Shown here: piece by piece, positions 2,921-26,100 of the stretch
How the letters are laid out: every line of letters starts with the position of its first letter
How positions within the stretch are numbered: position 1 is the first letter of the stretch
Virus record (IMG/VR): IMGVR_UViG_3300017697_003800
Span: 1 to 48,018 of that record
From: a virus
Direction: 5' to 3' (one strand)
Length of the DNA stretch: 48,018 bases
The notes under the pieces: generated by a model
Seen by the model: only the letters and a program-made list of their open reading frames with translations
Told to the model about the DNA's origin: nothing
The model's database searches: none
Translations under genes and position numbers: made by a program

Positions 2921-3025
2921 TTATTTGTATATGAATGGGTCTTTCTTTTTCAACTCTTTGAGTCTCTTCCTGTACTTGATCTCTTGTTTGATCTTGTTGA
3001 CCAGATTCTTTATCCAAGTAAACAT
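2921..3025 (-). CDS. Very small basic helical protein (34 aa)
   Basis: A 34-residue frame starting at ATG 3025 and ending with TAA at 2921. It has a good Shine-Dalgarno (TAGGAGA) 6-8 bases upstream, inside the end of the preceding gene, and its ATG overlaps that gene's stop (TAATG). The protein is strongly basic: 14 of 34 residues are Lys or Arg, beginning MFTWIKNLVNKIKQEIK. It is predicted to form one amphipathic helix, with a hydrophobic face at the N-terminus. Possible roles include a nucleic-acid- or membrane-associated peptide; I cannot assign one. The coupling and ribosome-binding site argue that it is translated. Confidence 0.65.
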   Translation of the reverse strand: MFTWIKNLVNKIKQEIKYRKRLKELKKKDPFIYK

Positions 3026-3816
3026 TATTTGTCTCCTATTAGTTTATTAAAAGTTGGTAACATTAATTGTACAGCATCTTGGTGGGCCTCGTCAAGTGGA
3101 TGTGTTGTTCCACGTGGATAATCCTCCAACATCGCCCATTGGTTGAACCCCATCATCCTCTCCCCAAATGAGAACCATTTGGTAAAATCTATTTCTTTAT
3201 GCAGAGCAGACAACAGGTTATCCTGGTCCTTGTGTTGCTTGAATTCGTCATAGAACAGAGTGTTGTCAGCCAGTGTGAACATGAATGGTATTTGTTTCTT
3301 TTCCAATATGTTCTGCAACCAGATGATGCTCTTCCAACTGAGGTAAGTCTCATGATATTGATTGGCCGCATGCTTGTAGATGGCCTCCGCGAACGGTTTC
3401 ACTCCCGTCTCCGCGAATGTGTCCCTCCTGGTTCTCCATTGCTCCTGCTGTGACTCAGAACCTGCTAGACTCCTAAATGCTTCCTCATTGCCGGTGTCTG
3501 TGTCCCACGGAGATATTGATGTCCACCTTGTGTTTTCCAAGGCCTGATGTCTGGGCATGGCCCAATCATATCTCGATAGGAAACTCCACATAACCACAAC
3601 ACCTCCCACATCTGTGTTGTTGGCCACTGCATTAAACACACGTCTGGCTATTCCACTGTTTCCAGTACCGGGGTATGCCGTACATACGTATTCGTGCTCC
3701 TGCGGTTTCAACCCATGAGCCCATGTTTTTTTGCTTGGTCTTTTACCCTCTTGGTCATCGCTGAGCTCGTGTCCGTATGTGAAACTGCAACCGCCTGCTA
3801 TAAATTTTTTAGTCAT
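3025..3816 (-). CDS. SGNH/GDSL-like hydrolase or acyltransferase homologue 1
   Basis: A 263-residue protein with a Gly-Cys-Ser-Phe-Thr motif at residues 9-13, in the position of block I (GDSxT) of SGNH hydrolases, with the putative nucleophile Ser11. A glycine/asparagine turn (GTGN) corresponds to block II, a MWS segment lies near block III, and a C-terminal HPLDEAH (239-245) keeps the Asp242-x2-His245 of block V. SGNH enzymes remove or transfer acyl groups on lipids, glycans and peptidoglycan. The Asp of GDS is replaced by Cys, typical of a marine-phage 'GCSFT' subgroup. It overlaps the stop of the upstream radical SAM gene by 8 bases, and the 34-residue gene starts on its stop. The fold call is fairly safe; activity and substrate are not known. 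Confidence 0.65.
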   Translation of the reverse strand: MTKKFIAGGCSFTYGHELSDDQEGKRPSKKTWAHGLKPQEHEYVCTAYPGTGNSGIARRVFNAVANNTDVGGVVVMWSFLSRYDWAMPRHQALENTRWTSISPWDTDTGNEEAFRSLAGSESQQEQWRTRRDTFAETGVKPFAEAIYKHAANQYHETYLSWKSIIWLQNILEKKQIPFMFTLADNTLFYDEFKQHKDQDNLLSALHKEIDFTKWFSFGERMMGFNQWAMLEDYPRGTTHPLDEAHQDAVQLMLPTFNKLIGDK

Positions 3817-4990
3817 ATATTTTTAATATGTTATTTAAAAGTGGAAACATATCTCCAAAATTTTCTTTCCTGTACTTGTCTGTCTGTAGTATCCTTGCCT
3901 TACGTTGTTCTCTGATCTCGGGTGTGTCCCTGTCAGCGGCGTTCATGAACCTTATGCTGGGTTGATAGTCTGTGAGCATGTGATACCTGTCCTGAACTAT
4001 GTCCTTGACCTGTCGTGGCAGTGTCTGTATATTAAACACATCTGGGTCAAAGCATGTATTGACATAGAAAAATTTAGGTTGGAACTGTGCTACCCATAGT
4101 GCCATCTTTGCCCAGTTGAACACGTTGAAAATAGACACCGTGGAACATATTTGGAAGTCCATGTTGGCTGTTTTACGTTCCTTAAACTTGACTAGATTTT
4201 GATTTACCTCTCGCCACTTGGCAGGATGCCTCTGGTACTCGAATGGTTCTCCCACGTCGTCTATGCTAAATGCTATCTCCACATGTTTGAAACAACTCCA
4301 TAGGTCAAATATCGCCTGTGGTGGTAACTGCGTGCCATTGGTGTTGTAGTGTATGTCTATGTTTTTGGCATATCCCTTCTCCACACAGTGCATCAAGATC
4401 TTGAAGTGGTCCTTGATCATGAACGGCTCGCCGCCTGTGAACTCAAAGTACTCCACGTGTTTTAGATCCTCCTTGAGGTCTTCAAAAAACTGTGGGTTAC
4501 GTTTTGGCCAGCCACCCTCCTTCAGTTGTTTTCTGGCAACAGGATTGTCTCCGCCCTTGGCCGTCTCATAATCTATCTCTTCCTGTGCCCACTTCGAGGA
4601 ACTCCATGATCCGCATATCCTACATTTTAAATTACACACGTTGCCCAACTTAAAGTCAATGAACTTGAGGGTTGGCTCGCTATTGGGGGTCCACTCTGTC
4701 AAACTTTTCTTCATCTTGTATATAGAGTTCTGTCTCTTAGAAGTCTTTTCAGCGTCCTCCTCCTGCCAACAGCTCTGACACCCTATAGGACGTTCACCGT
4801 TTCTAAACTGTGTTCTAAGATTGTCCATGTATTCTGTATCTTGTATAGATTTCAGACTTTGTTCGTACACTTTCACTCCAGGAATACTTCCCTTGTACAA
4901 ACAGCAAGGCGATGCGCCGCCATTTACATCAACTTCAAGGTGTGTCCAAGGTAATGGACAAATGTTTGATTTTATATACTTGTCCACCAC
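3809..4990 (-). CDS. Radical SAM protein A with N-terminal SPASM/twitch-like cysteine cluster
   Basis: A 393-residue protein. The radical SAM core has the cluster motif C119-x3-C123-x2-C126, followed by the SAM-binding GGEP at 185-188. Before the core, residues 11-74 hold C11-PLPW, PCC at 28-30 and C71-x2-C74-W, an arrangement that looks like a SPASM or twitch auxiliary-cluster segment, normally found C-terminal to the core. The C-terminus ends in a D-x2-R ... FP motif shared with paralogues C, D and E. SPASM/twitch enzymes typically modify peptides or small metabolites by radical chemistry; no substrate is evident here. The start is GTG at 4990, with AAGG about 7 bases upstream and a 19-base overlap with the upstream gene. 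A second GTG follows immediately and could also serve. Confidence 0.88.
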   Translation of the reverse strand: MVDKYIKSNICPLPWTHLEVDVNGGASPCCLYKGSIPGVKVYEQSLKSIQDTEYMDNLRTQFRNGERPIGCQSCWQEEDAEKTSKRQNSIYKMKKSLTEWTPNSEPTLKFIDFKLGNVCNLKCRICGSWSSSKWAQEEIDYETAKGGDNPVARKQLKEGGWPKRNPQFFEDLKEDLKHVEYFEFTGGEPFMIKDHFKILMHCVEKGYAKNIDIHYNTNGTQLPPQAIFDLWSCFKHVEIAFSIDDVGEPFEYQRHPAKWREVNQNLVKFKERKTANMDFQICSTVSIFNVFNWAKMALWVAQFQPKFFYVNTCFDPDVFNIQTLPRQVKDIVQDRYHMLTDYQPSIRFMNAADRDTPEIREQRKARILQTDKYRKENFGDMFPLLNNILKIYD

Positions 4991-6312
4991 TCTAATGCCT
5001 TTTTGTTTTTTGCTAATATTTTTCTGATATCTGTACCTCTGATCCTGTCTAAACGTTCAATTTCCGATTTGCCTTGTTCCTGTCCTTTTTTATATAATTT
5101 TTCATCATACACTAGCTCATTGTTTCTTTTTTGTTTCTGCATTTCGTCCAACTGTCCAAAAAAATTGTTTAGATTCGAATTTTTGTATTTGGTTGTTTTT
5201 TCTCGTACATCATCTATTATCTCACTCATTATATCGTATGGCATGAACAACGGTGCCATAGCATTGTCGTGTGAAAAATTAAAAACCTGCTTTGTTAGTA
5301 GTTCAACATTTAATTCATTGCTTAATTTGACCATGTTTTCTAGGTCAAACAATCCCGGTAGTGTGATAGTCAAATCCAACTGCATTCTTTTGTAAGCATG
5401 GGTGTTATCGCAAAATTTCAATCCGTATTTGATGTTCTCCAACCATTCATCATATTTCAGTCCGGTACGTATGTATTCTCCCACTTCTCCCGTGCCGTCT
5501 ATTGATGCACATATCTGAAACTTAGGGAAAAATTTTAATATGTCATCAAATAAATTCTTGCCATAAAAGTTGATACGACTCATGTTAGAATTGTATCTGG
5601 CTAGAACTTTATCAGCATATCCCAACTCCTTGATCCTCTCCATAGCCGTCCAATGTATCTTCCACATCAGGGGTTCTCCACCGCACCAATACAGTTCAGT
5701 TATGCGTTTTTCTTCAACTGCTTCTGTGAACTCTTTTACTACTTGTTGATCATGAAACTTTGCTAGTTGCTCTTTAATATCTTTTCTACCCCAGATTCTA
5801 TAATTTTCGTAATCACCTTTGCCATGTTTTTTATTTTCTGTTTCCCAGGTACTACTGAGCATGTCACCACACATCCTACAACTGAAATTGCACAGGTTAG
5901 AAAATCTATAATCAAAACTTTCTGTCTGCATTGTCGTGGCTCCTGTTTCGTCTGTGCTGTCATATGCTTCTTCTACTTTGTTTTTGTACAACCAATTGAA
6001 GTGCTGTCTATACACCTGTTCATTCAACAGTTTGTGATTGCACACAGCACACTGCGGAATCTCTTCGCCCGCTAACAATTTCAATCTCACGGCTTTCATG
6101 TAATCTGAATTCCAATGCTGTTGAAGTGTGGTGAGATGTAATTTATCAGTTTTTCCAGTTTGATCCACTGAGTCTATGTACTGTTTGAAGTTCTCTGGTG
6201 TTTCTCGTGAACTACAACACAACCTTCTTTCCATCTGAGGTGAAAGATACGTGTGCGTCCATGGTGCCATACAAAATGTTTTGTTGCCTTCGCTAGGTTT
6301 AATTCTTTTCAT
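4972..6312 (-). CDS. Radical SAM protein B with N-terminal SPASM/twitch-like cysteine cluster
   Basis: A 446-residue paralogue. The N-terminal cysteine segment is C14-MAPW, CC at 32-33 and C88-x2-C91; the core motif is C141-x3-C145-x2-C148; the SAM-binding GGEP is at 211-214. It is the most divergent of the set at the C-terminus: the LDRIRG part of the shared tail motif is kept, but the FP dipeptide is replaced. It is also Lys/Glu-rich there. The ATG at 6312 has AAGGA about 6 bases upstream and overlaps the end of paralogue C by 14 bases. It probably binds two iron-sulfur clusters. The target is unknown. Confidence 0.87.
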   Translation of the reverse strand: MKRIKPSEGNKTFCMAPWTHTYLSPQMERRLCCSSRETPENFKQYIDSVDQTGKTDKLHLTTLQQHWNSDYMKAVRLKLLAGEEIPQCAVCNHKLLNEQVYRQHFNWLYKNKVEEAYDSTDETGATTMQTESFDYRFSNLCNFSCRMCGDMLSSTWETENKKHGKGDYENYRIWGRKDIKEQLAKFHDQQVVKEFTEAVEEKRITELYWCGGEPLMWKIHWTAMERIKELGYADKVLARYNSNMSRINFYGKNLFDDILKFFPKFQICASIDGTGEVGEYIRTGLKYDEWLENIKYGLKFCDNTHAYKRMQLDLTITLPGLFDLENMVKLSNELNVELLTKQVFNFSHDNAMAPLFMPYDIMSEIIDDVREKTTKYKNSNLNNFFGQLDEMQKQKRNNELVYDEKLYKKGQEQGKSEIERLDRIRGTDIRKILAKNKKALEWWTSI

Positions 6313-7582
6313 ACAATTCCTTCAATTCAGGAAATGTTTCAAGGATATTTTCATCTCTGATCACGTCCATCTTTTTCATTGTGTCTTTGAACTGCTGTAT
6401 GTCCTTGTTGTTATCTCTCCTCATCATGTAATCGAGGCCAGATTCAAACCCTTTGGTTGCCCTAGTAAGATTATCCAAAGGACGCAACCATTCTAAGTGC
6501 TTGTCTATTTTTTCTTTTACTTTTTGTTTGTATGAGTCTGGCAATAGGTCTATCCGCTGTGCGTATGGATATTGCAACAAGTTGAAGTTGAAGTCCTGTG
6601 GTTTCAACAATCCTTGATCTACCCAGTTCCTGTGGAAGTCTGAAATGTGTAATGCATTTATCAACCCCACTGTGCTTGAAATGTAGAAGTCCACTTGCGG
6701 ACAAACTTCTAACATACGTTTCCTGTTTGCTACCACATCCTTCCACACTGTGCCTTTACGCATGTACTCTCCCCTGGCACCTTCGGCATCTAGACTTGCA
6801 CCTATCGATACGGAATCAAACTTGTTCCATAATTCCAAGACATCAATATCCTTGTACTTTGTTCTCGTGAAGTTTGTATTGTATATCAGTCTTACGTGAT
6901 ACATCTTACGCCTATCAAGTTCTTTCAATATCCTGTAGTGTTCTTCCATGATTATTGGTTCTCCACCTGCGAAGTAGAACTGTTCCACGTGTTCGAACTG
7001 TTCCAACATCTGTTCCCATATGTCATCACTGCTTCTACCAACCTTCATTATCTTTGCATGGTTGGGAGGGGAACCTGTTAATTTTTTATGATCCTCGTAC
7101 CAGTTTGAACTGAACCATGTGCCACAACTCCTGCAGGCCAGATTACATAGGTTACTGAATCTGATATCCCAGTACTTTATAACAAAGTCTGCTGAGCCGT
7201 CAGGCTGTGTGTTTTCTATCATTCCAATATTGTGTCCAAAGTGTTTGTTTGAACTTAGGCGCAGACTGAAAAATCCCGACTGTTCTTGATCATAACATTT
7301 TGTACAGTGTTTGCTTTTCTTATTAGATAACATGTTTTGTCTTATCTGTCGCATGTCTTTTCCATTGAACACCGTCTCCATAGAATCCTTGTTCAAGTCT
7401 CCGACTGGATATTTGTCCAATGCAAAACAGCAAGGATATGCCCTACCATCAGGAAATGCATGGATGTGTAACCAAGGCATCATACAGAATGATTCGCTGT
7501 CTAGCAACAACTCCTTCTCTTTAGGAGTCATGTCTTTAATTTTTAGTTTCTCGGGCTCTTTCGCCCCGTACTCATATGCCAC
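6299..7582 (-). CDS. Radical SAM protein C with N-terminal SPASM/twitch-like cysteine cluster
   Basis: A 427-residue paralogue with the clearest SPASM-like head: C33-MMPW, a DGRAYPCC stretch ending at C51-C52, and C93-x2-C96. The core is C146-x3-C150-x2-C153, followed by GGEP in a strand context (YFAGGEP). The C-terminal tail holds D-x2-R-x5-I-x3-FPELKELY, matching A, D and E. The start is GTG at 7582, with GGAGA about 9 bases upstream inside the end of paralogue D (11-base overlap). The in-sequence ATG nearby is out of frame, and the next in-frame ATG lacks a ribosome-binding site. It probably carries the SAM cluster plus an auxiliary cluster; the substrate is unknown. Confidence 0.88.
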   Translation of the reverse strand: MAYEYGAKEPEKLKIKDMTPKEKELLLDSESFCMMPWLHIHAFPDGRAYPCCFALDKYPVGDLNKDSMETVFNGKDMRQIRQNMLSNKKSKHCTKCYDQEQSGFFSLRLSSNKHFGHNIGMIENTQPDGSADFVIKYWDIRFSNLCNLACRSCGTWFSSNWYEDHKKLTGSPPNHAKIMKVGRSSDDIWEQMLEQFEHVEQFYFAGGEPIIMEEHYRILKELDRRKMYHVRLIYNTNFTRTKYKDIDVLELWNKFDSVSIGASLDAEGARGEYMRKGTVWKDVVANRKRMLEVCPQVDFYISSTVGLINALHISDFHRNWVDQGLLKPQDFNFNLLQYPYAQRIDLLPDSYKQKVKEKIDKHLEWLRPLDNLTRATKGFESGLDYMMRRDNNKDIQQFKDTMKKMDVIRDENILETFPELKELYEKN

Positions 7583-8915
7583 GGTACCATTCTCCTATTA
7601 TTGGGAAAGTCTTTTCAAAGTCCTTCCCTTGTCGTTTGTCGTATTGACTGTAAAATGCTTTGAAATCTTTCTGTAACTTGCTTTGTTCGGCCGCACCTGC
7701 GTGTGGTGTTTTAACGACATCTAGATAGTCAATTAGTCTCTGTGTTTGATTTATTTCCATGTGTTCTAAATGTTTTTCATTACTATTTAAAAATTTTACC
7801 AAGTCCAGTTTAAATTTATTTCTTAGCTCGTCTGGTAGTACAAGCGGTGATTGGAAACTCGGAAACCTGAGAATATTGAGTGTGAAGTTAACCTCTGGTC
7901 CATACACTTTACTTGCACTTTTAAACCATACCATCTTCTCTAACAGTTCGGGTAGTGACTCCAAGCACAATGCATTTATGGTGCACATATTGTGGATTGC
8001 ACGTGGAACTTTGTCCACCATCATGTGCAGGAAGTTGGAATGCCAATCTCCATATACTATTCCGTCTCTGATGTACTCTGCCTGTCCAAATGTTGCTTCG
8101 CAACTGGTGTACAATTCAAAGTTATCAAACTTTTTCAATTTTGTTTTAAATCTATCGATAATGCTCTGCTTTGCACCCAAGTTAGAATTTATTGCAAGAG
8201 TCATGTTAGGATTCATTTTATCACCTTGTGTTTCTATCCAATCCAACAGTCTCCACAGGTTAGGTGACATCATCGGCTCTCCGCCTGTTATCCTCAGTTC
8301 GTCTAGACTCTTGTGTAGGTCTGTTTCCCACCATTTGTAGAATGCTTCAACGTATGGATTTGTCTCATCCTTCTTGTACGGCTCTGCACTTTCGTGACTG
8401 TGTGTGAAATGATTCCGTCCATCAGTTACCATGTCTGTGTATGGTCCTTGCCTTTTAATATTGTTTGCCCATGTAGAACTAAATGCAGGATTACAATATG
8501 TACAAGCAAAGTTACAAGTCCTGTCAAATGCTATTTCTAATGTTTTAAGATTCCAGTCTGTGTTTGGATCTGACTTGTGTGCTTCATCTAATGCTTCATT
8601 TGAGAATATTTTTGATTTGTATACCCTGTCACTGATGTTATCTCTATTGATATCTTCTATCTTCCAGCAGTACTCACAACCTTTTGGTCTGTCTCCACAC
8701 TGCATCTGCTTACGTTCTGCTTTCTTCTGTACTGTGTTGTGTATTGCACTTGGATTTGTTTTTATTGCTTCTAGATCAATCTTGTGCGGAAGAGGGTGAT
8801 GGCAACTTGTGGTCATACCACTGCCCAACCATATAGTTGCGTTGTACCACTTGGCTCCGCAGAAACTTGCACTCTTTGGATCTAGTATTTGTTTCTTATA
8901 TTCAAGATCGTCCAT
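7572..8915 (-). CDS. Radical SAM protein D (CxHP subtype)
   Basis: A 447-residue paralogue closest to E. The head has C19-GAKW, then SCHHP at 37-41 in place of the PCC of A-C, and C80-x2-C83-W followed by KIED. The core is C134-x3-C138-x2-C141, then ITGGEPMM. The tail motif is YDKRQG ... FEKTFPIIGEWY. Replacing the Cys-Cys pair by Cys-His-His suggests altered ligation of the auxiliary cluster or a different metal. The ATG at 8915 has an AAAGGAAAAG leader and overlaps the upstream SGNH-like gene by 14 bases. The substrate is unknown. Confidence 0.87.
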   Translation of the reverse strand: MDDLEYKKQILDPKSASFCGAKWYNATIWLGSGMTTSCHHPLPHKIDLEAIKTNPSAIHNTVQKKAERKQMQCGDRPKGCEYCWKIEDINRDNISDRVYKSKIFSNEALDEAHKSDPNTDWNLKTLEIAFDRTCNFACTYCNPAFSSTWANNIKRQGPYTDMVTDGRNHFTHSHESAEPYKKDETNPYVEAFYKWWETDLHKSLDELRITGGEPMMSPNLWRLLDWIETQGDKMNPNMTLAINSNLGAKQSIIDRFKTKLKKFDNFELYTSCEATFGQAEYIRDGIVYGDWHSNFLHMMVDKVPRAIHNMCTINALCLESLPELLEKMVWFKSASKVYGPEVNFTLNILRFPSFQSPLVLPDELRNKFKLDLVKFLNSNEKHLEHMEINQTQRLIDYLDVVKTPHAGAAEQSKLQKDFKAFYSQYDKRQGKDFEKTFPIIGEWYRGI

Positions 8916-9642
8916 CTTTTCCTTTAAAGTAATTTTTTAATTTGTTGTATTCGTCCTCCGGACACCTCACGTCACTCTCGAACATGATGTCCTTGACCCA
9001 GTGGTAGTGTGCTATGGGTGGTGGGTGTGATTCTCCCGGAATGTAGTATTCCTTGTAGTTGTCTTCCGCGAACTCCCACAATCCTTGCTTATCCTTGTAG
9101 AACAAGAATTTGGTCCAGTCGATTGTGTTGTACAATGCACGTTCGCCCTCACTGTAAGATTCGTCACGTAGAACATCCTTGTTGAATATCATCATTGTGT
9201 AAGGTATTGCTTTCTTGTCCAGAAACAACTGTGTCCTTATAATGTGTTCCAGCGTCCTGTAGTACTGGTGTTCTTCATCCCAGAAGTGTCTCCTGTAGTA
9301 TTCATGTTTGTCCTTTTCGGGGTGGCCTCCATACCAGGTGCTCCACTGTAAGTCATCGTCCCACACATAATATGTCACACGTCCTTTTACCTCATCTGCT
9401 CCTCTGTCTTTGGTTATCACTTCGTACCTGTCTGTTCCCGACCACATGATGTACATGTGATCTATCTGGGTGTGTTTCATAGCACTGTTTATCGCCGCAC
9501 GTGATATGGTCTCGTTTCCTGATCCTGACCTGCCCTTGTTCAACATTGTTATGCCACCATTGAACCATGGAACAAACTTGGGCCAGCATGGCCAGCCGTA
9601 CCTAGTGAAACTACATCCGTGTGCTATTGTTTTGTTATGCAT
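8902..9642 (-). CDS. SGNH/GDSL-like homologue 2, block V Asp lost
   Basis: A 246-residue relative of the protein at 3025-3816. It shares GCSFT at residues 9-13 (putative nucleophile Ser11), a GSGNETISRA turn at the block II position, and IMWSGTDRY around block III. The C-terminal motif is HPPPIAH (206-212), so the histidine is kept but the Asp three residues before it is replaced by Pro209. It may therefore use a dyad, or be non-catalytic and binding only. It is aromatic-rich (many Trp and Tyr), which would suit a glycan partner. It lies between radical SAM genes E and D and overlaps both (8 and 14 bases), so it is expressed with them. GGAGGG lies upstream of ATG 9642. Function is unassigned. 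Confidence 0.6.
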   Translation of the reverse strand: MHNKTIAHGCSFTRYGWPCWPKFVPWFNGGITMLNKGRSGSGNETISRAAINSAMKHTQIDHMYIMWSGTDRYEVITKDRGADEVKGRVTYYVWDDDLQWSTWYGGHPEKDKHEYYRRHFWDEEHQYYRTLEHIIRTQLFLDKKAIPYTMMIFNKDVLRDESYSEGERALYNTIDWTKFLFYKDKQGLWEFAEDNYKEYYIPGESHPPPIAHYHWVKDIMFESDVRCPEDEYNKLKNYFKGKDGRS

Positions 9643-11005
9643 TCATACACTCCCTCCAGAACTCTTCCATCTCAGGGAAGGTGTTAAGGAATCTTGTTAA
9701 TCGTCTTCGATCGTGCTCGTTAAAAAATGCGTAAAAATCTTTTTTATTTTGCTTACTTGCGTCCGCATTTTCTCGCCAATATACGAGATTGCGTTGCATC
9801 TTTTGAATCTCGAAATCCTTGAATATGTGTAACCCGTTTGACTCGCCGGAATTGTCCTGCATGTACTTGATGTTGTCCTCGTGTATGCTCTGGTACGACT
9901 CTGGTAGCATCGTTATCTGTTGCCATGCGGGTTGTCTCAGCAGTGGCACGTCGAACCATACCCTCTGGTAGGTCTTGCTGTACTTGGTACGCAGTTCCAA
10001 TATCTTTTGTAACAACTTGTCCATGCTTGTAATACTTAGATTGTTATAGGTGCATATGAATGTTATGGAGTTACGTCCCGGTATACGCTCCAGAAACTCC
10101 TCCACGTTGTCCATCATGTAGTCGAAGTCCAATCCATTACGTATGTACTCCGCACGTTTGCCGAATGCGTCCACACTCACGAACTGCATCATGTGTTCCA
10201 CCTTGCCCTGCATACATATCTCCTGTGCCATGTTGAAGTACTTGGTCTTCAGTTTCTTGTCTGGTGGACACATATTGCTTGTGACGTTGAGATGTAGGTC
10301 CTGTTTGGGATTGTCAATTATGTACTGGAACACCTTGTAAGTGTTCACATCCATCATGGGTTCACCACCGGTCATACGGAAGTGCTTTAGATTCTTGTAC
10401 AGTGTGGGCCACCATTTCCAGAAAGCGGTCACATATGGATTCTCCTCCCTGTTGGGTATGGGCTTACGTCTGCCCTGGAAGTGTTCGGGGGCATTGTGTG
10501 GGGTCGCTGTGGGATATGCCCCATACCTATCCGTTTCTTTACCCCAGGCAGTGGAGAACTGTGGCGAACAGTAACTACACTTGAAATTACAAGCGTTGTT
10601 GAAGTTTACCTCCACGTACCTGGGTGTCCAACTTGTGGTCATTGGATTCTGTCTAATCTGCTCGAAGTCCTGCATGGCCCATGGCTCACCTGAACGATAG
10701 TGCCTGTCTGACATCTCACCTGTGTCCTCTAGTTTCCAGCAGTATGAACATCCATCCGGACGTTCGCCTTTGAGCATTTGTGATCTCTGTTCCAGTTTCT
10801 CTGCTGTGTTATGCAGTGCGGCAGGATTTTCCTTCACTGCTTCTGCGTCCATCTTGTGCAGGGGCGGGTGGTAGCATGAATTTGTGAGTCCTGTGGGCAG
10901 GTGCAGTGATGTCTGGTTCCACTTGGCCAGGCACATTGTGGGCGACACTTCTGCTAATTTGTCTTTGGCCTTCAGTGCGTCCTGTTTGTAATCACTGTTA
11001 CTCAT
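9635..11005 (-). CDS. Radical SAM protein E (CxHP subtype)
   Basis: A 456-residue paralogue of D. The head is C25-LAKW, SCYHP at 43-47 and C86-x2-C89-W followed by KLED; the core is C139-x3-C143-x2-C146; then MTGGEPMMD. The tail motif is HDRRRL ... FLNTFPEMEEFW. I place the start at ATG 11005. The frame stays open for 22 more codons upstream, but that extension lies inside the preceding glycosyltransferase gene and has no resemblance to the family. The chosen ATG overlaps the preceding stop by 8 bases and has GGAG/AGGA upstream. D and E probably arose by duplication; SGNH-like gene 2 now sits between them. Confidence 0.87.
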   Translation of the reverse strand: MSNSDYKQDALKAKDKLAEVSPTMCLAKWNQTSLHLPTGLTNSCYHPPLHKMDAEAVKENPAALHNTAEKLEQRSQMLKGERPDGCSYCWKLEDTGEMSDRHYRSGEPWAMQDFEQIRQNPMTTSWTPRYVEVNFNNACNFKCSYCSPQFSTAWGKETDRYGAYPTATPHNAPEHFQGRRKPIPNREENPYVTAFWKWWPTLYKNLKHFRMTGGEPMMDVNTYKVFQYIIDNPKQDLHLNVTSNMCPPDKKLKTKYFNMAQEICMQGKVEHMMQFVSVDAFGKRAEYIRNGLDFDYMMDNVEEFLERIPGRNSITFICTYNNLSITSMDKLLQKILELRTKYSKTYQRVWFDVPLLRQPAWQQITMLPESYQSIHEDNIKYMQDNSGESNGLHIFKDFEIQKMQRNLVYWRENADASKQNKKDFYAFFNEHDRRRLTRFLNTFPEMEEFWRECMNA

Positions 11006-11894
11006 GATCCTGCACTCCATGGTTCCTGTGCTGGGGTTTGACGAATCTGTAGAACCTGCTTTGATCGGCATCCAACTCTGCTATGGGCATATCTAACCGC
11101 TGTCTAAGACTGTTGCCGAACATCGCCAGTTGCTCGTCTATGTCGTTCCTATCCATGACCCCTTTGAAATACTCTATCATCGAGTCAAGGTCACGAACCA
11201 TGTATAACTTTTTATTGTAGTTCTCTAAAACTGTGTAGAAACACCCCATCCTTGCACCCAACATTGCATACTTGCCATTTTCAACATCGGCCCCGACCGT
11301 ACACCAAGTGCTGAGTCTCTTTAAATTCTCTGGCCAAATATTTTTGAAGTTTTCTGCTTTGAAAGGCTTGCCTTTTTCTGTACTCATTTTTACACCTTCT
11401 CTGTATCCTGCCACAAAACACTGTTCCTCACTGCCATTGATAATTGTCTCTGAATAACAGTTGTGTAGATTTTCATGTGGAACACCCCAACAGAAATCTA
11501 TTTGGTTCTCTTCGGAGTCCGCATTCTCGTGTGTCTTCATATTCAAGCAAGTATTTTTTGGCCACCCTACTACACCCCCGTTGCCGTAGATCAAACCATT
11601 TACATTGTTCTTGGCTTTCCAACGATGCACTGCCTTGGGATTGGTCTTGGTCCAATCCAGTGTTTGAAGTAGAAAACTTTCATCTATTATGTTATCACCG
11701 TCAACACTGATGAAGAAATCTGTTTCTGCCTTCTCCGCCGCGGCCTTGTGTGCGGAATCGAATCCAACAACACCGTCCACACGTTTTGCCCATGGCACTT
11801 TGTTCTTGAGGTCGGCCCAGTTCTGTTCCTTGTTGGGCTCCTTGAAGGAGATGTACACGAAATCTAGATCGCTTACTCTTGTTCTATCTGCCAT
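10998..11894 (-). CDS. GT-A-like glycosyltransferase 3
   Basis: A 298-residue protein with a glycosyltransferase GT-A layout: a Rossmann-like N-terminal half leading to FFISVDGDNIID, where D65-G-D67-N is a classic DxD metal/nucleotide-sugar site at the end of a strand. A CWGVPHE segment and a Trp/Cys-rich middle follow. The start, ATG 11894, has a near-perfect AAGGAGG about 6 bases upstream and overlaps the end of the 100-residue gene by 22 bases. It would transfer a sugar from an NDP-sugar, or bind one; the acceptor is unknown. It is the third such gene in a row, directly followed by the radical SAM series. Confidence 0.65.
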   Translation of the reverse strand: MADRTRVSDLDFVYISFKEPNKEQNWADLKNKVPWAKRVDGVVGFDSAHKAAAEKAETDFFISVDGDNIIDESFLLQTLDWTKTNPKAVHRWKAKNNVNGLIYGNGGVVGWPKNTCLNMKTHENADSEENQIDFCWGVPHENLHNCYSETIINGSEEQCFVAGYREGVKMSTEKGKPFKAENFKNIWPENLKRLSTWCTVGADVENGKYAMLGARMGCFYTVLENYNKKLYMVRDLDSMIEYFKGVMDRNDIDEQLAMFGNSLRQRLDMPIAELDADQSRFYRFVKPQHRNHGVQDHE

Positions 11895-12175
11895 GTCTCG
11901 CCTCCTTCTACTACTGCGTTTGGCCAGTGTATGTCGCTGTCCTGGAATGTATATCCTTTTGATGCTTTCTTCAATATGCTGTATCTTGTTTTTGGCGTTG
12001 GTTTAGGTTTTAACACTATCTCACCACCCCTCAACATCAGGTTCTTTTCACCGTACTGTTGTGCCCATTTGAACTTTTCCAATGTGACTTCGTGTTCCGT
12101 ACCTTGTACCGTTATGAAGAACCTCTTTGGCTCTCTCTTAGGCATTTTGGCCAGTGCTTCAAATAATCCTGGCAT
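11873..12175 (-). CDS. Unknown protein (100 aa) inside glycosyltransferase cluster
   Basis: A 100-residue frame with ATG 12175 preceded by AAGGAG at 4 bases. A longer frame of 113 codons exists, but its extra N-terminus lies inside the upstream gene and lacks a ribosome-binding site. The sequence is basic in the first half and acidic at the end (GGETWQIEQE), with beta-prone segments (RFFITVQGTEHEVTLEKF). I recognise no domain. It overlaps the upstream glycosyltransferase by 17 bases and the downstream one by 22, so it is translated as part of the same coupled set and may assist those enzymes. Confidence 0.65.
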   Translation of the reverse strand: MPGLFEALAKMPKREPKRFFITVQGTEHEVTLEKFKWAQQYGEKNLMLRGGEIVLKPKPTPKTRYSILKKASKGYTFQDSDIHWPNAVVEGGETWQIEQE

Positions 12176-12953
12176 GTAACTCCTTGTCGTGGTAGTGCCA
12201 TACCCTGCTGACACGTGTCTCTCCTATGTACACGGCATCTCCCGTCTTGTTTGGGTATAGATATTCGTTTTGATCCTTGGTCCTCACAGTGCCGTTGACA
12301 CCTGGCTTGTGATGTATAAATTTGAACCAATCGTAATCTATCAATCCCTGTAATGTGGGATCCATTATACGATATGCCAACGCAAACACAACATCAGTAC
12401 TGGGATATTCGTCATGACAGTTTATTAGCATAGTCTCTTTTACATCATTCCAGTTTGTTGCTATGTCTCTTGCTATGTTGTAAAACTGTTGTGACTTGTT
12501 GCTCCTCCTAAAATACATCAATCCGTTGTAGATATTTGGCAACAGGTTGCGTTTGAATAATTTCCTATATGGTGTTTCTTTTATAATGTTATTTCTGTAG
12601 TCAAAGCAGTCAACACTGAATACAAGATCATGTTGCCACAAGTGATACCACCACCAATCTGTGTTGGTAGTCCACAACATGTCTGCCTCAAGTTTGATAG
12701 TATGAGTGAATGGGGTCATGGAAAAAGCCTTGTGTTCATTTGCCCATTTTATTTCATGCTCTGCACTGTCATCTTGCCTAATTACTTTGACCATGTCAAC
12801 GTGTTCACTCTCAAACTTGCTTTTATCATCTGTTATCACGCACACCTGGTTGTGTTTATTCCAACGTTTAATGCTCTTGGCCAAGGTTATCGATAACTCC
12901 ACGTAATCCGTCTTGCTGTTGTTCTGTGCGAACCATAGGAATCCCCTAGACAT
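12159..12953 (-). CDS. GT-A-like glycosyltransferase 2
   Basis: A 264-residue protein. The segment FTHTIKLEADMLW (82-94) places E89-A-D91, a DxD-type variant, at the end of a strand as in GT-A enzymes. An SVDCFDYRN segment and a C-terminal HHKPGVNG stretch follow; a late His can be the second metal ligand in such enzymes. I use ATG 12953: it overlaps the upstream stop by 8 bases and has AAGGAG just upstream. A 25-codon extension, reading within the upstream gene, is rejected. It is the middle of three consecutive glycosyltransferase-like genes. The donor and acceptor are unknown. Confidence 0.65.
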   Translation of the reverse strand: MSRGFLWFAQNNSKTDYVELSITLAKSIKRWNKHNQVCVITDDKSKFESEHVDMVKVIRQDDSAEHEIKWANEHKAFSMTPFTHTIKLEADMLWTTNTDWWWYHLWQHDLVFSVDCFDYRNNIIKETPYRKLFKRNLLPNIYNGLMYFRRSNKSQQFYNIARDIATNWNDVKETMLINCHDEYPSTDVVFALAYRIMDPTLQGLIDYDWFKFIHHKPGVNGTVRTKDQNEYLYPNKTGDAVYIGETRVSRVWHYHDKELHARII

Positions 12954-13695
12954 TGGCCATCTCCTTGTTAAGCACATGTACATCCTGATCTTCCACGTAC
13001 GATATTTGATCTCTATATTTCCATGCAAGTCCGTTGTCTGTGATTTTTACAACCTCGCAGTCCGGTGGTAAGGTTGGCAGTGCCAATGGCAACTTGTTAT
13101 ATCCTGTGAATCCATTTATCTGTTGCAACGCCATGGCGAACAGGTAATCATTACGTAGATTTTTTGAATATACCCTGTACATGTCAGTGAAGTAGGAATA
13201 ATACTGTTTGATGTATTTTACAGTTTCAAATATTTTTCTCACTTTGTGATTCTTCTTGAATACCAACACAGTTGCCCACACCATAGGTATCATGCTCCAC
13301 CTCCGTTGGTCAAAAGTGTTCCTTCCTGTTAGGTCATACGCAGTGTCTGGTACCAGGAAGTCGTAGTCGGTGTCAAGGAACTGTGCGAGATTGTCTGTGA
13401 AACAGAAGTAATCTATGTCCATGACCAGTGTGCTGTCGTAGGGAGAGAGTTCGTAGGCCATATGCCTGTCAACATTGTTCCATTCTTTGCCCAACTTGGT
13501 GTTGCCTGATTCTGGTTCAATGAATTTGTAATTTATGAACCCCATTGGTTTCATTTTTTTGAAAGTTTTGAAGTTCGTCACAACCGTAATTGGCAATTTT
13601 AAATTTTTCTTGACAAGCCTGACGCAACGCTCCAGTATGCTGTGATATTTGGTGTCTGCTGTGTCAAAGCAGAACAATAACACACCCTTAGTCAT
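12946..13695 (-). CDS. GT-A-like glycosyltransferase 1
   Basis: A 249-residue protein. The N-terminal KGVLLFCFDTADTKYHSIL strand-loop-helix and the STLVMDIDYFCF segment (D93-I-D95) give the GT-A nucleotide-sugar site. Further aromatic and basic residues follow, with a conserved-looking NDYLFAMAL helix and a C-terminal strand. The ATG at 13695 overlaps the end of the preceding gene by 8 bases and has GAGAAGA upstream; the longer in-frame start at 13707 is less well placed. Together with genes 2 and 3 it suggests a chain of sugar transfers, or modification of one glycan by several enzymes. The exact activity is not visible. Confidence 0.65.
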   Translation of the reverse strand: MTKGVLLFCFDTADTKYHSILERCVRLVKKNLKLPITVVTNFKTFKKMKPMGFINYKFIEPESGNTKLGKEWNNVDRHMAYELSPYDSTLVMDIDYFCFTDNLAQFLDTDYDFLVPDTAYDLTGRNTFDQRRWSMIPMVWATVLVFKKNHKVRKIFETVKYIKQYYSYFTDMYRVYSKNLRNDYLFAMALQQINGFTGYNKLPLALPTLPPDCEVVKITDNGLAWKYRDQISYVEDQDVHVLNKEMANV

Positions 13696-14008
13696 TTTTC
13701 TTCTCAAATGTTTTTGACATCTGATGATATGAACTAATGGCCTCCTGGTTTCTTTGTACTAGTACCTGCAAGAATTTAGATGGGTCAGAAATTTCTACGG
13801 GATTTTTGTTGGAATCTAGGATATAGAACGATGATGTATGCACTTCCATCAGATTCTTGACTAGATTTATTGTTTCGGGGTCAGCACAAAAGATGTGTTC
13901 GTCGTAGACGACAATCATTCGTGAAGTCGCTTTCTCCAGAGCGTTGCGTTTGGCAATCGCTATGTCGTAAGAAAGGTCTGATTGTTTTTTTAGTTCGCCA
14001 ATGTCCAT
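13688..14008 (-). CDS. Unknown protein (106 aa), first gene of the accessory cassette
   Basis: A 106-residue protein starting MDIGELKK from ATG 14008. An N-terminal helix (residues 1-30, Lys/Glu/Asp-rich) is followed by a strand (RMIVVYDEHIFCADPE), a helix, a strand (SSFYILDSNKNPVEI) and a C-terminal helix. I recognise no family. An in-frame TTG at 14023 would extend it by five residues, but it lies within the promoter described at 14015-14043. There is no Shine-Dalgarno before the ATG, and the predicted transcription start falls at or next to it, so translation may be leaderless. Glycosyltransferase 1 starts within its last codons. Confidence 0.7.
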   Translation of the reverse strand: MDIGELKKQSDLSYDIAIAKRNALEKATSRMIVVYDEHIFCADPETINLVKNLMEVHTSSFYILDSNKNPVEISDPSKFLQVLVQRNQEAISSYHQMSKTFEKKND

Positions 14009-14009
14009 A

Positions 14010-14035
14010 CCACAATTATACAATAATTATGGTGG
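14010..14035. repeat. Inverted repeat overlapping the cassette promoter
   Basis: Reading the minus strand, CCAC-(CAT)-AATTAT-TGT-ATAATT-GTGG forms a 10-bp stem with a 3-base bulge and 3-base loop. It covers the -10 box and most of the spacer of the TTGATT/TATAAT promoter. No U-tract follows, so it is not a terminator; an operator-like site or a hairpin in read-through RNA is more likely. Confidence 0.4.
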
Positions 14036-14056: not shown

Positions 14057-15010
14057 TTACGACTGTGAGTTGCTGACTTGTGCGTTTGAGCTATACTGTA
14101 TCGCCGACGCCAATCCTTGTGCCGCTGTTGGCTCCCTGGCCACCAAGTTTAGTGACATGGCAGGTGCCTCATTGGGGTTTGCCGGCACACCTGATGTGTT
14201 GGGCGAGGTGTAAGTCGTGTCCGCCGCTGGGTCCGATGCCACAAGTTTGACAGTTAAGACTGTCGCTGATGACACTGCCGCGTTAATCTTGACGAATACT
14301 TCTAACGTGTCGGAAGTGTAACCCGAGTTGTTTGAAGTCAATTTCAATAACGTTACGTAACTGTCTGATGAGAGATCATGGAAACCAGTTCCACTGTTGA
14401 AAGTGGTCTGTGTCTCACCTGATCCTGATCTTGTTGTTGCGTGTGCTTTGAATTCTACTGTTCCCATGGCAGATTCCAGTTCTGAGAACACCGTGTCCTT
14501 GTTACCGTCCGTTGAACCTGATGTGCCTGGGTTAATCTTGATTGAGCCACCTGCATTGAAGAAGGCCCTCATAGTCGCGTTGTTGGCGAATGTGATCGAT
14601 CTCTCAATAGTGGATGTTGAATTCCATGTACCTGAGTTTGTGCTTGTACCTGCGTCCCTGTCTGCTAGTGCTGTCGCACCTGTTGATCCTGCCGCCACAG
14701 CCGCCGCCAAGTTGGCAAGGTCTGTGATCAATGCTGATCTGATCGCTACAGTGTCTCCCGCTGATACTGATGATGCTGTGATAGAGACGTTTGTGTGGTT
14801 GGCAATGTTGTCCAACCCTGTGAATAGACTGTTCCACTGTGATGCCTGTACTGTGCCACCCGCTGAAACTGTTGAAATTGAACTTTGATTTAATCCGTAT
14901 ATTGTTGCCCCTGTTCCTGCGAAATGGTTGTATCCGTATGGACTTGAACTGTTGCCTACGAAAGCGTTGTACTCGTCGTCTAAAATTGTATCACCTGCAC
15001 TGTATGCCAT
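14057..15010 (-). CDS. Virion/tail structural protein (317 aa), Ala/Thr/Ser-rich
   Basis: A 317-residue, low-complexity acidic protein rich in Ala, Ser, Thr and Gly. It begins MAYSAGDTILDDEYNAFV, a start like those of the neighbouring fibre-like proteins (MAYxI), and has a mid-section of beta-prone Ser/Thr repeats. It lies at the downstream end of the tail-fibre block, 6 bases after the 548-residue fibre gene. No enzymatic motif is present. Composition and position indicate a fibre or fibre-associated virion component. GGAG occurs about 14 bases before the ATG, a weak ribosome-binding site. It is the last gene before the cassette promoter; I see no terminator in the 48 bases that follow. Confidence 0.7.
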   Translation of the reverse strand: MAYSAGDTILDDEYNAFVGNSSSPYGYNHFAGTGATIYGLNQSSISTVSAGGTVQASQWNSLFTGLDNIANHTNVSITASSVSAGDTVAIRSALITDLANLAAAVAAGSTGATALADRDAGTSTNSGTWNSTSTIERSITFANNATMRAFFNAGGSIKINPGTSGSTDGNKDTVFSELESAMGTVEFKAHATTRSGSGETQTTFNSGTGFHDLSSDSYVTLLKLTSNNSGYTSDTLEVFVKINAAVSSATVLTVKLVASDPAADTTYTSPNTSGVPANPNEAPAMSLNLVAREPTAAQGLASAIQYSSNAQVSNSQS

Positions 15011-15016
15011 AATTTT

Positions 15017-16663
15017 TTATTTCACTCCTATCACGCACTCTGTGAGTGCTGTTTCTTCGTTGTATTTATCCTTGATCAGTCTACCCAGGGTGTTAAAAGC
15101 GGTACATTCCTCTAGTTCTGCCACCCGGGCCTCACCATTGCCTGCTGATACCACACGATCCCCTGCCTTGCCTGAGCCCGTTAATTTAACCATAACACGT
15201 CCCTTCAATGCCACCATGGGGTGTGAGTCGTTGTTTCCGGCCTGTGCATTCATTAGGAACGCTGGTGATTCTGATATCACGCCAAAAACGGCGTCTGACA
15301 GCTCGTCCTTGCACTTGGTTATCTCTGCATGGCCACCTAAAATCACTACATCTCCCACCTCCGTGTCGCAATCTGCTTCATATCTCTCGGCCAAGTCAGC
15401 GTACATGGCACTAGTAGTGGTCGCATGTACCACGTTTGCTCTGATGTCCACAAGTGTTGGTGCTTCCATTTCTGTATCTGTTTGTGCAGACTTGAATGCT
15501 GTCCAGGCACCTCCTGCATTTCCGTATGTTGTTGATCCGTCGTCCGCGAACGTTTCATCCCAAACCCAATAAAGGTCCTGTTCTGTCGCACTTGACGTCT
15601 GACCCCTGTTGACTTTTAATCCTGTGTGATTAGGCATGCCAGCGTTGCTAGATATATTCCTGTTCAGTTCTATAATGTTGTCTTCAACTGAAAGGGTTGA
15701 TGTGTTTAATATTGTCTGTGTTCCGTCTACCGTTAAATTTCCTTTTACCCTGATGTCTCCCACTGAAGGAAGTTCTAGTAATCCTGATGAACCATCCATG
15801 GTCATCATTGTTGTTGTGACTCCACCGTCATTGACAGTAAAGATAATGTCTTTGTTTATTGTAGTCTGAGCTATTGTGAAATCATCACTTGATAACGACA
15901 TTGTAATATCTGAACCAGCACCTAATATTATACCTGTATCATTTAAAATACTAAACGAACTCGTTGTTGAATCATTTTGGTCTGATCTCAGATAGTTGGC
16001 CGCGGCCACTCCGCCCAGTGATTCTGAATCTGTTGCAGTTCCTCTGAACTTGGCTGATGACACACTTGTTGAAAGTTGTATACCTTGTGCCACCGTGGCA
16101 AATCCTGCTGATACTAATGCGGCTCCTAATGTTTCTGTAGAACTTGGCGTGAATGCAACGTTGGATATTACACCAACTACCGTGTCATTGGTTACCAGTT
16201 TCAATATAGATTGTTTTACCCCTGTGTTGTCTTCCGGTAATTCCGTTATGACCTGTGTCACACCTGATCCTGCAACTGTTGTTGGCCCAATTAGGGTCCA
16301 TGCTGATCCTGTGTAAACGTAAAGTTGTGTGTTAGTGGTGTCGAACCACAAGTCACCCTGCACTGCGTTGGTCGGTGCTGTTCCCGAATTGGTGGTCGAA
16401 CCAACTGGTTTCCATTTTGATCCTGTGTAAACATTAATTTGGTTGTTTGTCTTGTCATACCACATCTGTCCCTGCACTTTATTAGATGGTGCTGTGGTGT
16501 TGTTGAAATTCTCTAGGAGTTTGACTAGGTTCTCGTTTAACTTCTCGCCGAAACCCGCATAACCTTTTCCTATCAGTGTAAGGTCAGTGGTTGCGACATC
16601 AATTGTGCCGTCTGCCAGTGTGACCAATAAGGTCCCGAATGTGTTGTTAATCTTGTATGCCAT
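15017..16663 (-). CDS. Tail-fibre-like protein with C-terminal G2-type domain (548 aa)
   Basis: The N-terminal ~125 residues contain a module shared with the proteins at 19461-20858 and 20869-22377: IGKGYAGFGEKLNEN, a LLENFNNTTAPSN turn and repeated 'G-x-LWFDTTNxQLYVYTGSAW' hairpins. The central part is beta-rich repeats. The last 128 residues start at YADLAERYEAD (421) and continue GVISESPAFLMN and ALKGRVMVKLTG. This resembles the Peptidase_G2-like C-terminal domain of phage fibres, which folds the fibre and is then cleaved off in some phages. It is probably a host-recognition or decoration protein of the tail. The start ATG 16663 follows directly after the stop of the 60-residue gene. Confidence 0.78.
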   Translation of the reverse strand: MAYKINNTFGTLLVTLADGTIDVATTDLTLIGKGYAGFGEKLNENLVKLLENFNNTTAPSNKVQGQMWYDKTNNQINVYTGSKWKPVGSTTNSGTAPTNAVQGDLWFDTTNTQLYVYTGSAWTLIGPTTVAGSGVTQVITELPEDNTGVKQSILKLVTNDTVVGVISNVAFTPSSTETLGAALVSAGFATVAQGIQLSTSVSSAKFRGTATDSESLGGVAAANYLRSDQNDSTTSSFSILNDTGIILGAGSDITMSLSSDDFTIAQTTINKDIIFTVNDGGVTTTMMTMDGSSGLLELPSVGDIRVKGNLTVDGTQTILNTSTLSVEDNIIELNRNISSNAGMPNHTGLKVNRGQTSSATEQDLYWVWDETFADDGSTTYGNAGGAWTAFKSAQTDTEMEAPTLVDIRANVVHATTTSAMYADLAERYEADCDTEVGDVVILGGHAEITKCKDELSDAVFGVISESPAFLMNAQAGNNDSHPMVALKGRVMVKLTGSGKAGDRVVSAGNGEARVAELEECTAFNTLGRLIKDKYNEETALTECVIGVK

Positions 16664-23111: not shown

Positions 23112-26100
23112 TTATTCAGGTGCGTTTGTAGGCTCATTAGCAATGAATTTAGCCTGTTGTGTGCTTGAAGCCTGTAATCCTTTACCATCTGCTGGATTAC
23201 CGTCTAATGCCGTGTACCAAACCTGTCCTTTCTTGTGTAATATTTTGATCTGTGTTCCTGAAGCGGGTGCTGTGCTTAAAGTTACGGCAGTTGTGCTTCC
23301 ATCCACAGAATAGTTGATAGTTGATCCATCCTCGCTAGTAAGCAACAATCGTTGGCCACCAATGAATATGTCTAACTCACTAGCGGATGATGGTGTTTGT
23401 GATAGTGCGAATGTAAGTGTACTGCCGTCACCTGTGAAGGTGTTGGTGTACACTGTGTCCGCATAAGGGATGGTTTGAGTACCAGACGTATCTACCACTT
23501 CCGTGCCTGATCCATGCTCCTTAATTCCTGTACCAAGTGTTCCACGTCTTAGTTGTCCCAACGTGTTACTTGATTTTGTAAAATATTCTATTCTCTCTTT
23601 ATCTATGAATATGACTCCTGGAGTATTGCTTGCCACGTCCGGTGTTGGCAACACAGTTGCATCTGCCACTGTGATTGTTTGTGTGCCTTCTGTCATATCT
23701 ATTGTTAATTTTGTAGTCGCATTTTTTGAAATACGTTTGTAGAACGTTCTGTTCATCATGTCTTTGAATATCCTGAATCCCGTGGCATTTACCGCTGAAT
23801 CCACTGCGAAGTACATTACGTCAAGCCTATCCGATGATGTAATTGTTCTACCATTGATTGTTATTGTGTTTCCGCTGACTGTGTAATCTGCACCTTGTAC
23901 CAATTGTTCACCATTCAACCACACATAAGTGTAACCTGCGTTTAGAGTGTCAAATCTCAATTTGAATACACCGCTCGGTCTGCCTTCTAACACTTCCCTC
24001 CTCTGTTTCATGCCAAGGGCATTGTTAAATGTTGTCACAGAGAGTACATTACTGGCGCTTAAACTGTAAGGCGATGTAATAGCACTTGGTATCAAAATAA
24101 TATCGGTCCCTTCATTGTAGTACTGATGATCGACAAGTGTTGATATACAAATCACATCAGTAGAAGTCGGCACAGACGCTGTGACAAATTCAATGTTTTG
24201 ATTTCCTATGTCAACCGTGTAGTCGGTATTCAAATCTTTTTTGGTTCCATTCACATACACTTCTACTTGCGAAGCGGCAGTGATCGTCTTAGCAGGATCG
24301 ACTGTCGAGTCATCTGCAAGTCCCGATACAACTCCGTAGGTGTAAGTGCTTCCGTCACCAACATAATAAGTGTTGTCTGGTCCACGTAGCACCCTGCCAT
24401 TGACCTCTACTGTTGTGAGACCAGAGAACGGTCCTATCGCACCAGGTGGATATGTTAACGTGTATCTGTTTGTCGATCCATCATATGTTATGGCTTGGTT
24501 TCTCACACTTGCATAACTTCTTGTAGATGTTGCTGACTTGTTGAACCCGGCTATCTGTATATAAGAACTTGCCGCCGGCGCCGAACTAAACACAACTGTG
24601 ATTGTGTTTGCTGTCGTACTAGTTGTGTACGCTGAGGTTGGCACGCCATCTACTGTAACATAAATGTCAGAAGATGTTGAATCTAGATTAAACTCGCCTC
24701 TCGTCGAAGTAAAGAATGAAGTAGTACTACCGTCTCCTGTGAATGAGTTCAACACTCTGTAATTTTCTCCTGATATAGCAAACACTTTAGTTGAAATCTG
24801 TGAGTAATTTGCAGGTGCAGTGTCAAATGTAATTGTTTTGTTTGCAATGTCAATAGTATAATCAGACACTGTTGAATCTAATGCACTGCCTTTCTGAACC
24901 ACACCGTCCACTGCAACAGTCACTGATCCAAGTGTCCCTGGATAATCACCGATGCTGTATGTGGTTGTACTTCCGTTTCCTTTGTAATTTTTCTCACTTA
25001 TAAACGGTACACCTGACTCTGGTGATGTGTAAACTTTAATATCTAGAGTGTCAAATATTTGGCCTGGCACAGTTTCTTCTGGTGCATAACTTGTATCAGG
25101 TGTTACAAAACCGTCACCTTCTAATACAATATCGCTAGGTGCGTGACCTAATGCCGAAGTGAACAGTCCACCTTTGATAATTGAATCTAAAGTCCTATCA
25201 TCTGTTGGTGTAAGCACACCATCATCATCGAAAGGAATGAACTCAACCAATGCGTTGATTTCAGGTACCTCACTTATGGTGAAACTTACAGTAGATCCAT
25301 CTCCTCGGATCACATCTGATAGTTTTTTACGTGTGCTGTCATCCTGCGTTAGGTAAACCTGGTAAACTTCAGTTGATGCTGGTGCAGTATCAAAAGTGTA
25401 TGCCGCTGTTGATCCATCGGCTGTGAACGCTTTAATTCTTGACTCTCCGTAGTTGTCCCATGGGAAGTCATACCAACCCGCTTTGTCCCAACTTTGGTCT
25501 TGTGAGAACAACAATCCTGTTACCATTGTTCCGCCGTAGTCAACACCGGTCATCACTTGGTCTAATTCATTGCCTGGCATTCCAGATCCTGGAGTGTAGA
25601 AACCTTTTGTCCTGTCCGCCGCTGTGAGACCTGTCTCGTTGCCTAATACTTTGTACACACTTCCTATGTTGTCATCAAAGTCTGTGCTTGATGTGAATGC
25701 GTTTGTTACTTTGTACAATTGATTGTTGTATCTCAATAGGTCATTGTATGCGTATGCAGTAGATGCCGTCCAATCCACTACCCTGGATGTGCTTGACACC
25801 CTATCAAATTTTATCGTTGTGTCAAAGTCCCTTACTAGATCGTTATTCAAGTTTGCGTAGGCCTTGGCTGTGTCTGTTGGTGTGGTACCATCTGTCTTAC
25901 CGCCTGACAGTACAATAGTTGGTGTTGTTGTGTAGTTTGCACCGATGCCTGTCACATTAACTTTTGTTACTGCACCATTTTGTATGATTGCTGTGGCAGT
26001 TGCCGCAGTGGTAGTAGGTGCAACATATATCTTGAAAGAACCAGATTTATCACTCTGTGCTTCATTAACCGATGTTGTTGGGCCATAGAACGTTCCAGTC

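Follow-up and report, generated by a model that had tools for sequence, protein, structure and literature searches.

An old, ordered array of five radical SAM genes with a predicted N-terminal twitch domain in a lineage of uncultured T4-like phages

Modules rich in radical S-adenosylmethionine (SAM) genes have been reported in several T4-like phages. Campylobacter phages CP220 and CPt10, which are near-identical to each other and distantly T4-like, carry 11 to 12 such genes per genome, including a module with five of them that is exchangeable between the two phages (PMC2853527). A 183-kb marine T4-like genome reported in 2017 encodes an A-type iron-sulfur (Fe-S) carrier besides 12 radical SAM genes, and that report links radical SAM richness with this carrier in marine T4-like genomes (PMC5332604). 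For pelagimyophages, a 2020 report places cassettes of radical SAM genes within the host-recognition cluster (PMC7029224). Here, we analyzed a 48-kb virus record, IMG/VR IMGVR_UViG_3300017697_003800, all 48,018 nucleotides of which are referred to as the window. On the minus strand, within positions 3809 to 11005, it has five radical SAM open reading frames (ORFs), P1 to P5, arranged head to tail in the transcription order P5-P4-P3-P2-P1, each overlapping another of them or an intervening gene (8902 to 9642).

An earlier note on this DNA, made from the sequence alone, had put these five ORFs forward as a candidate undescribed system with an auxiliary-cluster domain in front of the radical SAM core, and had suggested a profile search. 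The five ORFs and their motifs were as described there, each protein having CxxxCxxC, GGEP, and an N-terminal C-x3-W, C, and C-x2-C. The search assigned all of them, at full length, to NF033640 (N_Twi_rSAM), with scores of 361.9, 310.3, 416.1, 288.4, and 325.4 bits for P1 to P5, respectively (E values between 9e-86 and 1.5e-124). Since all five score 288 to 416 bits against a curated cutoff of 170 bits, a chance match is excluded. NF033640 is an NCBIfam family named for its twitch domain (the twitch-before-core order was thus already catalogued), and we found no function for it. Identity with prokaryotic viperin (NF038283) was rejected (best score, 29.7 bits versus a cutoff of 180), as was identity with QueE, the model of which scores far under its cutoff. 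P1, P2, P4, and P5 are each about 20 to 27% identical to P3. Among 214 aligned relatives, conservation within each orthologous group is 98 to 100% for the four cysteines of the N-terminal segment and the three of the core, CxxxCxxC is found in all 214, and GGEP is found in 211.

The N-terminal segment, or head, measures about 64 to 78 residues and is longest in P2. The earlier note had given about 60 to 75 residues, and the PC or SC that it noted at the second head cysteine applies to all but P2, where this cysteine lies within LCC. When a profile of 29 heads was compared with all PDB sequences, the sole convincing match was BtrN (4M7S residues 163 to 237, E = 4.6e-5), and the matched segment is its C-terminal twitch. 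The four invariant head cysteines align with C169, C187, C232, and C235 of BtrN (counted along the profile alignment), which we take to be the four ligands of its auxiliary cluster. That this cluster is ligated by four cysteines has been described (PMC9012708). The twitch motif C-x(9-15)-G-x4-C...C-x2-C, which is the first half of the SPASM motif (PMC6231123), was found, allowing a spacer of 9 to 16, in 43/44 orthologs of P1, 42/42 of P3, 36/36 of P4, and 47/48 of P5. The orthologs of P2 keep the twitch cysteines and have mostly lost the glycine, with the full motif in 3/44. Pfam SPASM matched above its cutoff in P1 (residues 11 to 75) and P3 (residues 33 to 97, E = 9.9e-12), in both cases followed by the radical SAM core match (residues 115 to 249 and 141 to 292, respectively), and it matched 76 of 109 relatives. 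The match to the P2 head fell under the cutoff and P5 gave none, its four twitch cysteines being nevertheless conserved. Only four invariant cysteines exist outside the core triplet, as opposed to the seven of a SPASM domain with two auxiliary clusters, and the domain order is the reverse of the canonical one, in which SPASM or twitch is C-terminal. Considering the BtrN match, the SPASM matches among the relatives, and the NCBI family name, the proposal that the head is a twitch-type auxiliary-cluster domain relocated before the core is supported at the sequence level, and we strongly infer that each protein holds two clusters.

The AlphaFold models of P3 and P5 have high confidence along the entire chain (predicted local distance difference test [pLDDT] of 94.4 and 94.8, respectively). 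Compared with the PDB by Foldseek, they retrieved many radical SAM cores, with a query-normalized template modeling score of at most 0.37 and no full-length match among the matches listed. The near full-length matches were solely predicted viral proteins; most come from uncultured phages, and phage KVP40 supplies a weaker one. We found no solved structure of this rearranged twitch architecture, and the literature that was text-searched describes no SPASM or twitch domain at the N terminus.

To establish how the array is distributed, loci were retrieved with P1, P3, and P5 (each collection scan being queried with a single protein) and dereplicated to 82 groups, 60 of which have the complete five-gene array. 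The gene order is 5-4-3-2-1, as in the window, in 43 of these complete arrays and 5-4-3-1-2 in the other 17, the swap of P1 and P2 being seen in a distant clade. In some loci of this clade (L125-L130, L177, L179, L182, L183, L192, and L193), the array also has one or two additional N_Twi genes inserted, which are highly diverged. Neighboring array genes overlap in 79% of cases, with a median gap of -11 bases. In the tree, which holds 103 proteins, each of P1, P2, P3, and P4 forms one group with 99% support; the grouping of P5 has low support, which becomes 99% after the removal of one long row. P4 and P5 are closest to each other, and each of the five orthologous groups needs one origin. The median ratios of nonsynonymous to synonymous substitutions (dN/dS) against orthologs are 0.03 to 0.07 for each of P1 to P5, with strongly diverged synonymous sites. 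The fivefold amplification of which the earlier note had spoken is not supported: tree and synteny reject a recent amplification and show that the five groups of orthologs are old, are deeply diverged, and recur in many phages with a nearly constant order.

Of the complete arrays, 53 have enough sequence to show the upstream genes, and 52 of these are preceded by three glycosyltransferase-like genes (G1, G2, and G3). Two genes resembling SGNH-type enzymes, S1 and S2, are present in 50 and 12 of the 60 complete arrays, respectively. Since the first set of loci had been found via the radical SAM genes, a second set, not fully independent of it, was fetched through the tail-fiber gene, and 38 of its loci extend 7 kb or more downstream of the tail fiber; N_Twi genes were found there in 37. 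An exchangeable cassette is rejected by this result, the one exception being a partial tail-fiber match. The array is thereby a core component of the lineage.

Table 1. Array genes and flanking genes in the window
Feature	Coordinates	Strand	Evidence
P5, first array gene in transcription	9635-11005	-	NF033640 E = 5.3e-97; AlphaFold pLDDT 94.8
S2, SGNH-like, optional member between P5 and P4	8902-9642	-	Motifs in alignment; insertion pattern
P4, radical SAM, sister group of P5	7572-8915	-	NF033640 E = 9e-86; tree
P3, radical SAM, top match to NF033640 and Pfam SPASM	6299-7582	-	NF033640 E = 1.5e-124; pLDDT 94.4
P2, radical SAM	4972-6312	-	NF033640 E = 2e-92
P1, radical SAM, last of the array in the window	3809-4990	-	NF033640 E = 4.3e-108; Pfam SPASM
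S1, SGNH-like, behind the array; related to S2	3025-3816	-	Motifs in alignment; synteny
G1, glycosyltransferase-2-like, immediately upstream of P5	10998-11894	-	Weak Pfam GT2; synteny
G2, glycosyltransferase-8/glycogenin-like; ORF open from 13028	12159-12950	-	Glycogenin-1 profile match
G3, DUF5672-like putative glycosyltransferase	12946-13707	-	Weak DUF5672; invariant D-x-D pair
Two tail-fiber-like genes upstream of the G genes	14057-15010, 15017-16663	-	Synteny; loci retrieved via tail fiber

The coordinates are collected in Table 1. For P5, an alternative ATG at 11071 is possible; the start at 11005 is favored by the orthologs and by the resulting overlap of 8 bases with the gene upstream. 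The earlier note was silent on S2 within the array and on the flanking glycosyltransferase-like genes. In alignments, S1 and S2 show the GCSFT, GSGN (G-x-GN), and HPP-x2-H motifs of SGNH-type enzymes, an assignment that no profile search confirmed, the one against the PDB being uninformative. For G1, 6 of 14 orthologs give a weak Pfam GT2 match (E = 0.012 at best), and a D-x-DN is conserved. The G2 profile matches glycogenin-1 (E = 0.0016) and, below the family cutoff, the nucleotide-sugar transferase family Nucleotid_trans (E = 0.0012). G3 matches DUF5672 in 3 of 13 orthologs (best E = 7e-4), with D97 and D99 invariant. PDB profile searches with G1 and G3 gave no informative match. Two conserved proteins of about 110 amino acids and no recognizable family are encoded among the G genes and beside the tail-fiber genes (11873 to 12214 and 13688 to 14023). 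The tail-fiber-like genes have a Peptidase_G2-like end (E = 6e-4), and one of their relatives in isolates is annotated as baseplate wedge/tail pin. Beyond them lie more large virion genes, including baseplate wedge and baseplate hub, and a single gene for a virion structural protein of 4,288 amino acids (phrog_10938; 23112 to 35978) takes up over a quarter of the window. A thioredoxin-reductase-like gene (1266 to 2234) is located close to where the array ends downstream, with 84 to 98% identical orthologs at the same place in several relatives, and the far end of the window has a calcineurin-like phosphoesterase gene on the opposite strand (46939 to 47961). Among 12 large relatives, 7 have an A-type Fe-S carrier gene, as would suit a phage with many clusters to load; neither ferredoxin nor IscU was found accompanying the array in the records searched, all of which may be fragments.

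The family is scarce in cultured phages and rare in sampled bacteria. Twelve viral contigs and one metagenome-assembled genome (MAG), searched whole, have 6 to 14 N_Twi matches each, weak ones counted. The nucleotide-sugar epimerase, cytidylyltransferase, and phosphomannomutase families are among the neighbors of off-array phage copies. Among cultured phages, three records match P3 and P1, and none matches P5. In the stretch of Vibrio phage K566 examined, five proteins are N_Twi members, and for three of these the genes form a cluster that includes a glycosyltransferase family 8 (GT8) gene. Array contigs (L196-L200) were also binned in MAGs labeled Pelagibacter, Verrucomicrobia, Betaproteobacteria, Rickettsiales, and Flavobacterium. 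The presence of the same phage module in such different labeled "hosts" suggests that these five genome-collection matches are phage contigs binned into MAGs, i.e., viral contamination. With the center MAG of each search excluded, the family was detected (E < 1e-30) in 1 of 368 and 1 of 344 sampled bacterial genomes in two groups and in 0 of 288 in a third; the carriers were one each in the class of the Betaproteobacteria-labeled MAG and the phylum of the Flavobacterium MAG, while the Pelagibacter MAG's class had none. A Methylomagnum plasmid has one N_Twi gene in a glycan cluster with glycosyltransferases, and on a Bacteroidota contig the N_Twi gene is beside glycosyltransferases.

We see the array as a five-enzyme module of a lineage of uncultured T4-like phages, viruses of ocean and lake bacteria. 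In each enzyme, the core [4Fe-4S] cluster would cleave S-adenosylmethionine to give a 5'-deoxyadenosyl radical, which would abstract a hydrogen from the substrate, and the second cluster, on the four head cysteines, would most likely take the leftover electron. Since a four-cysteine head predicts an electron-accepting cluster, by analogy with the auxiliary clusters of BtrN, PqqE, and SuiB (PMC9012708), the reactions are probably oxidative, a view we hold with moderate to low confidence. P1 to P5 would be nonredundant, each carrying out a different step or acting at a different position. Five substrates or a stepwise modification, as the earlier note had put it, would be a reasonable reading and is strengthened by the retention of all five genes under purifying selection. 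Together with G1 to G3 and the SGNH-like proteins, the five enzymes would most likely make or modify a glycan of the tail fibers of the phage itself or of the host surface; we propose this substrate and target with moderate to low confidence. As a whole, successive oxidative tailoring by P1 to P5, most likely of a glycan made with the neighboring transferases, has in our judgment about an even chance of being correct. The resemblance of G2 to glycogenin favors it, as do the Vibrio phage, Methylomagnum, and Bacteroidota copies that adjoin glycosyltransferases, the nucleotide-sugar enzymes near off-array phage copies, and the fact that the nearest solved relative of the head is part of a cyclitol dehydrogenase. 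Several observations pull the other way: the cores are closest in fold to the peptide-modifying CteB, anSME, and SkfB and also to viperin and the sugar-acid enzyme BlsE; G1 and G3 are weakly recognizable as glycosyltransferases; many off-array N_Twi neighbors are unrelated to sugars; and one gammaproteobacterial copy lacks nearby glycan genes. Moreover, adjacency to glycosyltransferases is weak evidence, because phage host-recognition regions are rich in them anyway (PMC7029224).

The substrate could instead be protein, with P1 to P5 modifying amino acid side chains of phage tail-fiber or baseplate proteins, in the manner of sulfatase maturases or of enzymes acting on ribosomally synthesized and posttranslationally modified peptides, and with the glycosyltransferases independent or acting on the modified residues. 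The array is directly behind the tail-fiber genes in nearly all loci, the nearest folds include CteB, anSME, SkfB, and SuiB, all of them peptide modifying, and the glycogenin that G2 resembles is a protein-glucosylating enzyme. However, Pfam found no RRE or PqqD-type peptide-binding domain in 109 relatives, the mostly overlapping genes leave no space for a precursor peptide gene inside the array, and the cellular and Vibrio phage copies neighbor glycosyltransferases rather than peptide genes, so that we consider side-chain modification possible but doubtful. The fixed place behind the tail-fiber genes, together with the linkage to G1 to G3 across deep divergence, speaks against enzymes that redirect host metabolism (a nucleotide, a cofactor, or a small metabolite) unrelated to the virion or the cell surface. 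Such a role seems unlikely to us, even if viperin-like cores are among the fold and profile matches, genes such as those for IMP dehydrogenase and GTP cyclohydrolase surround other, scattered N_Twi copies, and earlier authors labeled phage radical SAM genes as metabolic (PMC2853527, PMC5332604); the viperin and QueE models score far under their cutoffs. Finally, membership of all five in one family could mean that they are largely redundant and retained by chance or for gene dosage. We give this very little credence, and it is already contradicted by the low identity to P3, the five orthologous groups in near-constant order, the retention of all catalytic cysteines, and the strong purifying selection on each gene.

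Radical SAM enzymes are oxygen sensitive and costly. Here, five distinct ones are under strong selection behind the tail fibers, and large relatives hold more elsewhere in the genome; retention at such a cost predicts an important virus-made chemical modification. Extending the glycan-tailoring reading, a dedicated five-step radical pathway with its own glycosyltransferases, and often its own Fe-S carrier, might make a virus-specific sugar or surface structure required for attachment or for the exclusion of competitors, with the rearranged twitch architecture used at every step, a plausible conjecture that we advance tentatively. The five orthologous groups make a functionally uncharacterized enzyme family testable, and they offer a target for solving, for the first time, how a radical SAM enzyme whose auxiliary-cluster domain is in front is built.

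Compared with known systems, P1 to P5 are well above the NF033640 cutoff over their full length and share its head-before-core order, but that family is defined protein by protein, whereas here five distinct members form an ordered array with glycosyltransferase-like genes. The C-terminal twitch of BtrN (2-deoxy-scyllo-inosamine dehydrogenase, 4M7S/4M7T) aligns with the head, with four cysteines in register, but it is at the opposite end of the chain, and BtrN has no full-length similarity to P1 to P5. In CP220, the radical SAM genes are followed by nucleotide-sugar-transferase-like genes, and the module includes an amidinotransferase. Identity with this module is rejected, the CP220 proteins in the stretch examined having no full-length match to the N_Twi profile; they are also shorter, and the marine array, unlike that exchangeable module, is almost always present. 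The marine T4-like and pelagimyophage genes (PMC5332604, PMC7029224) can be likened to P1 to P5 by description only, and the sections considered here describe no twitch placement, five orthologous groups, or gene order. In Vibrio phages K566 and K567 (OZ196521 and OZ196593), the N_Twi cluster of K566 also comes with a GT8 gene, but the proteins are only about 21 to 27% identical to P1 to P5 and do not form this array. "Undescribed" therefore does not apply to the family, which has a name, or to radical SAM expansions in phages, published in 2010 and 2017; it does apply to the function, none having been found, and to the conserved five-gene array, of which we found no report in the literature searched. 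What appears to be new is that five old N-terminal-twitch orthologous groups, together with three glycosyltransferase-like genes, form a unit that has a set order and is almost never missing.

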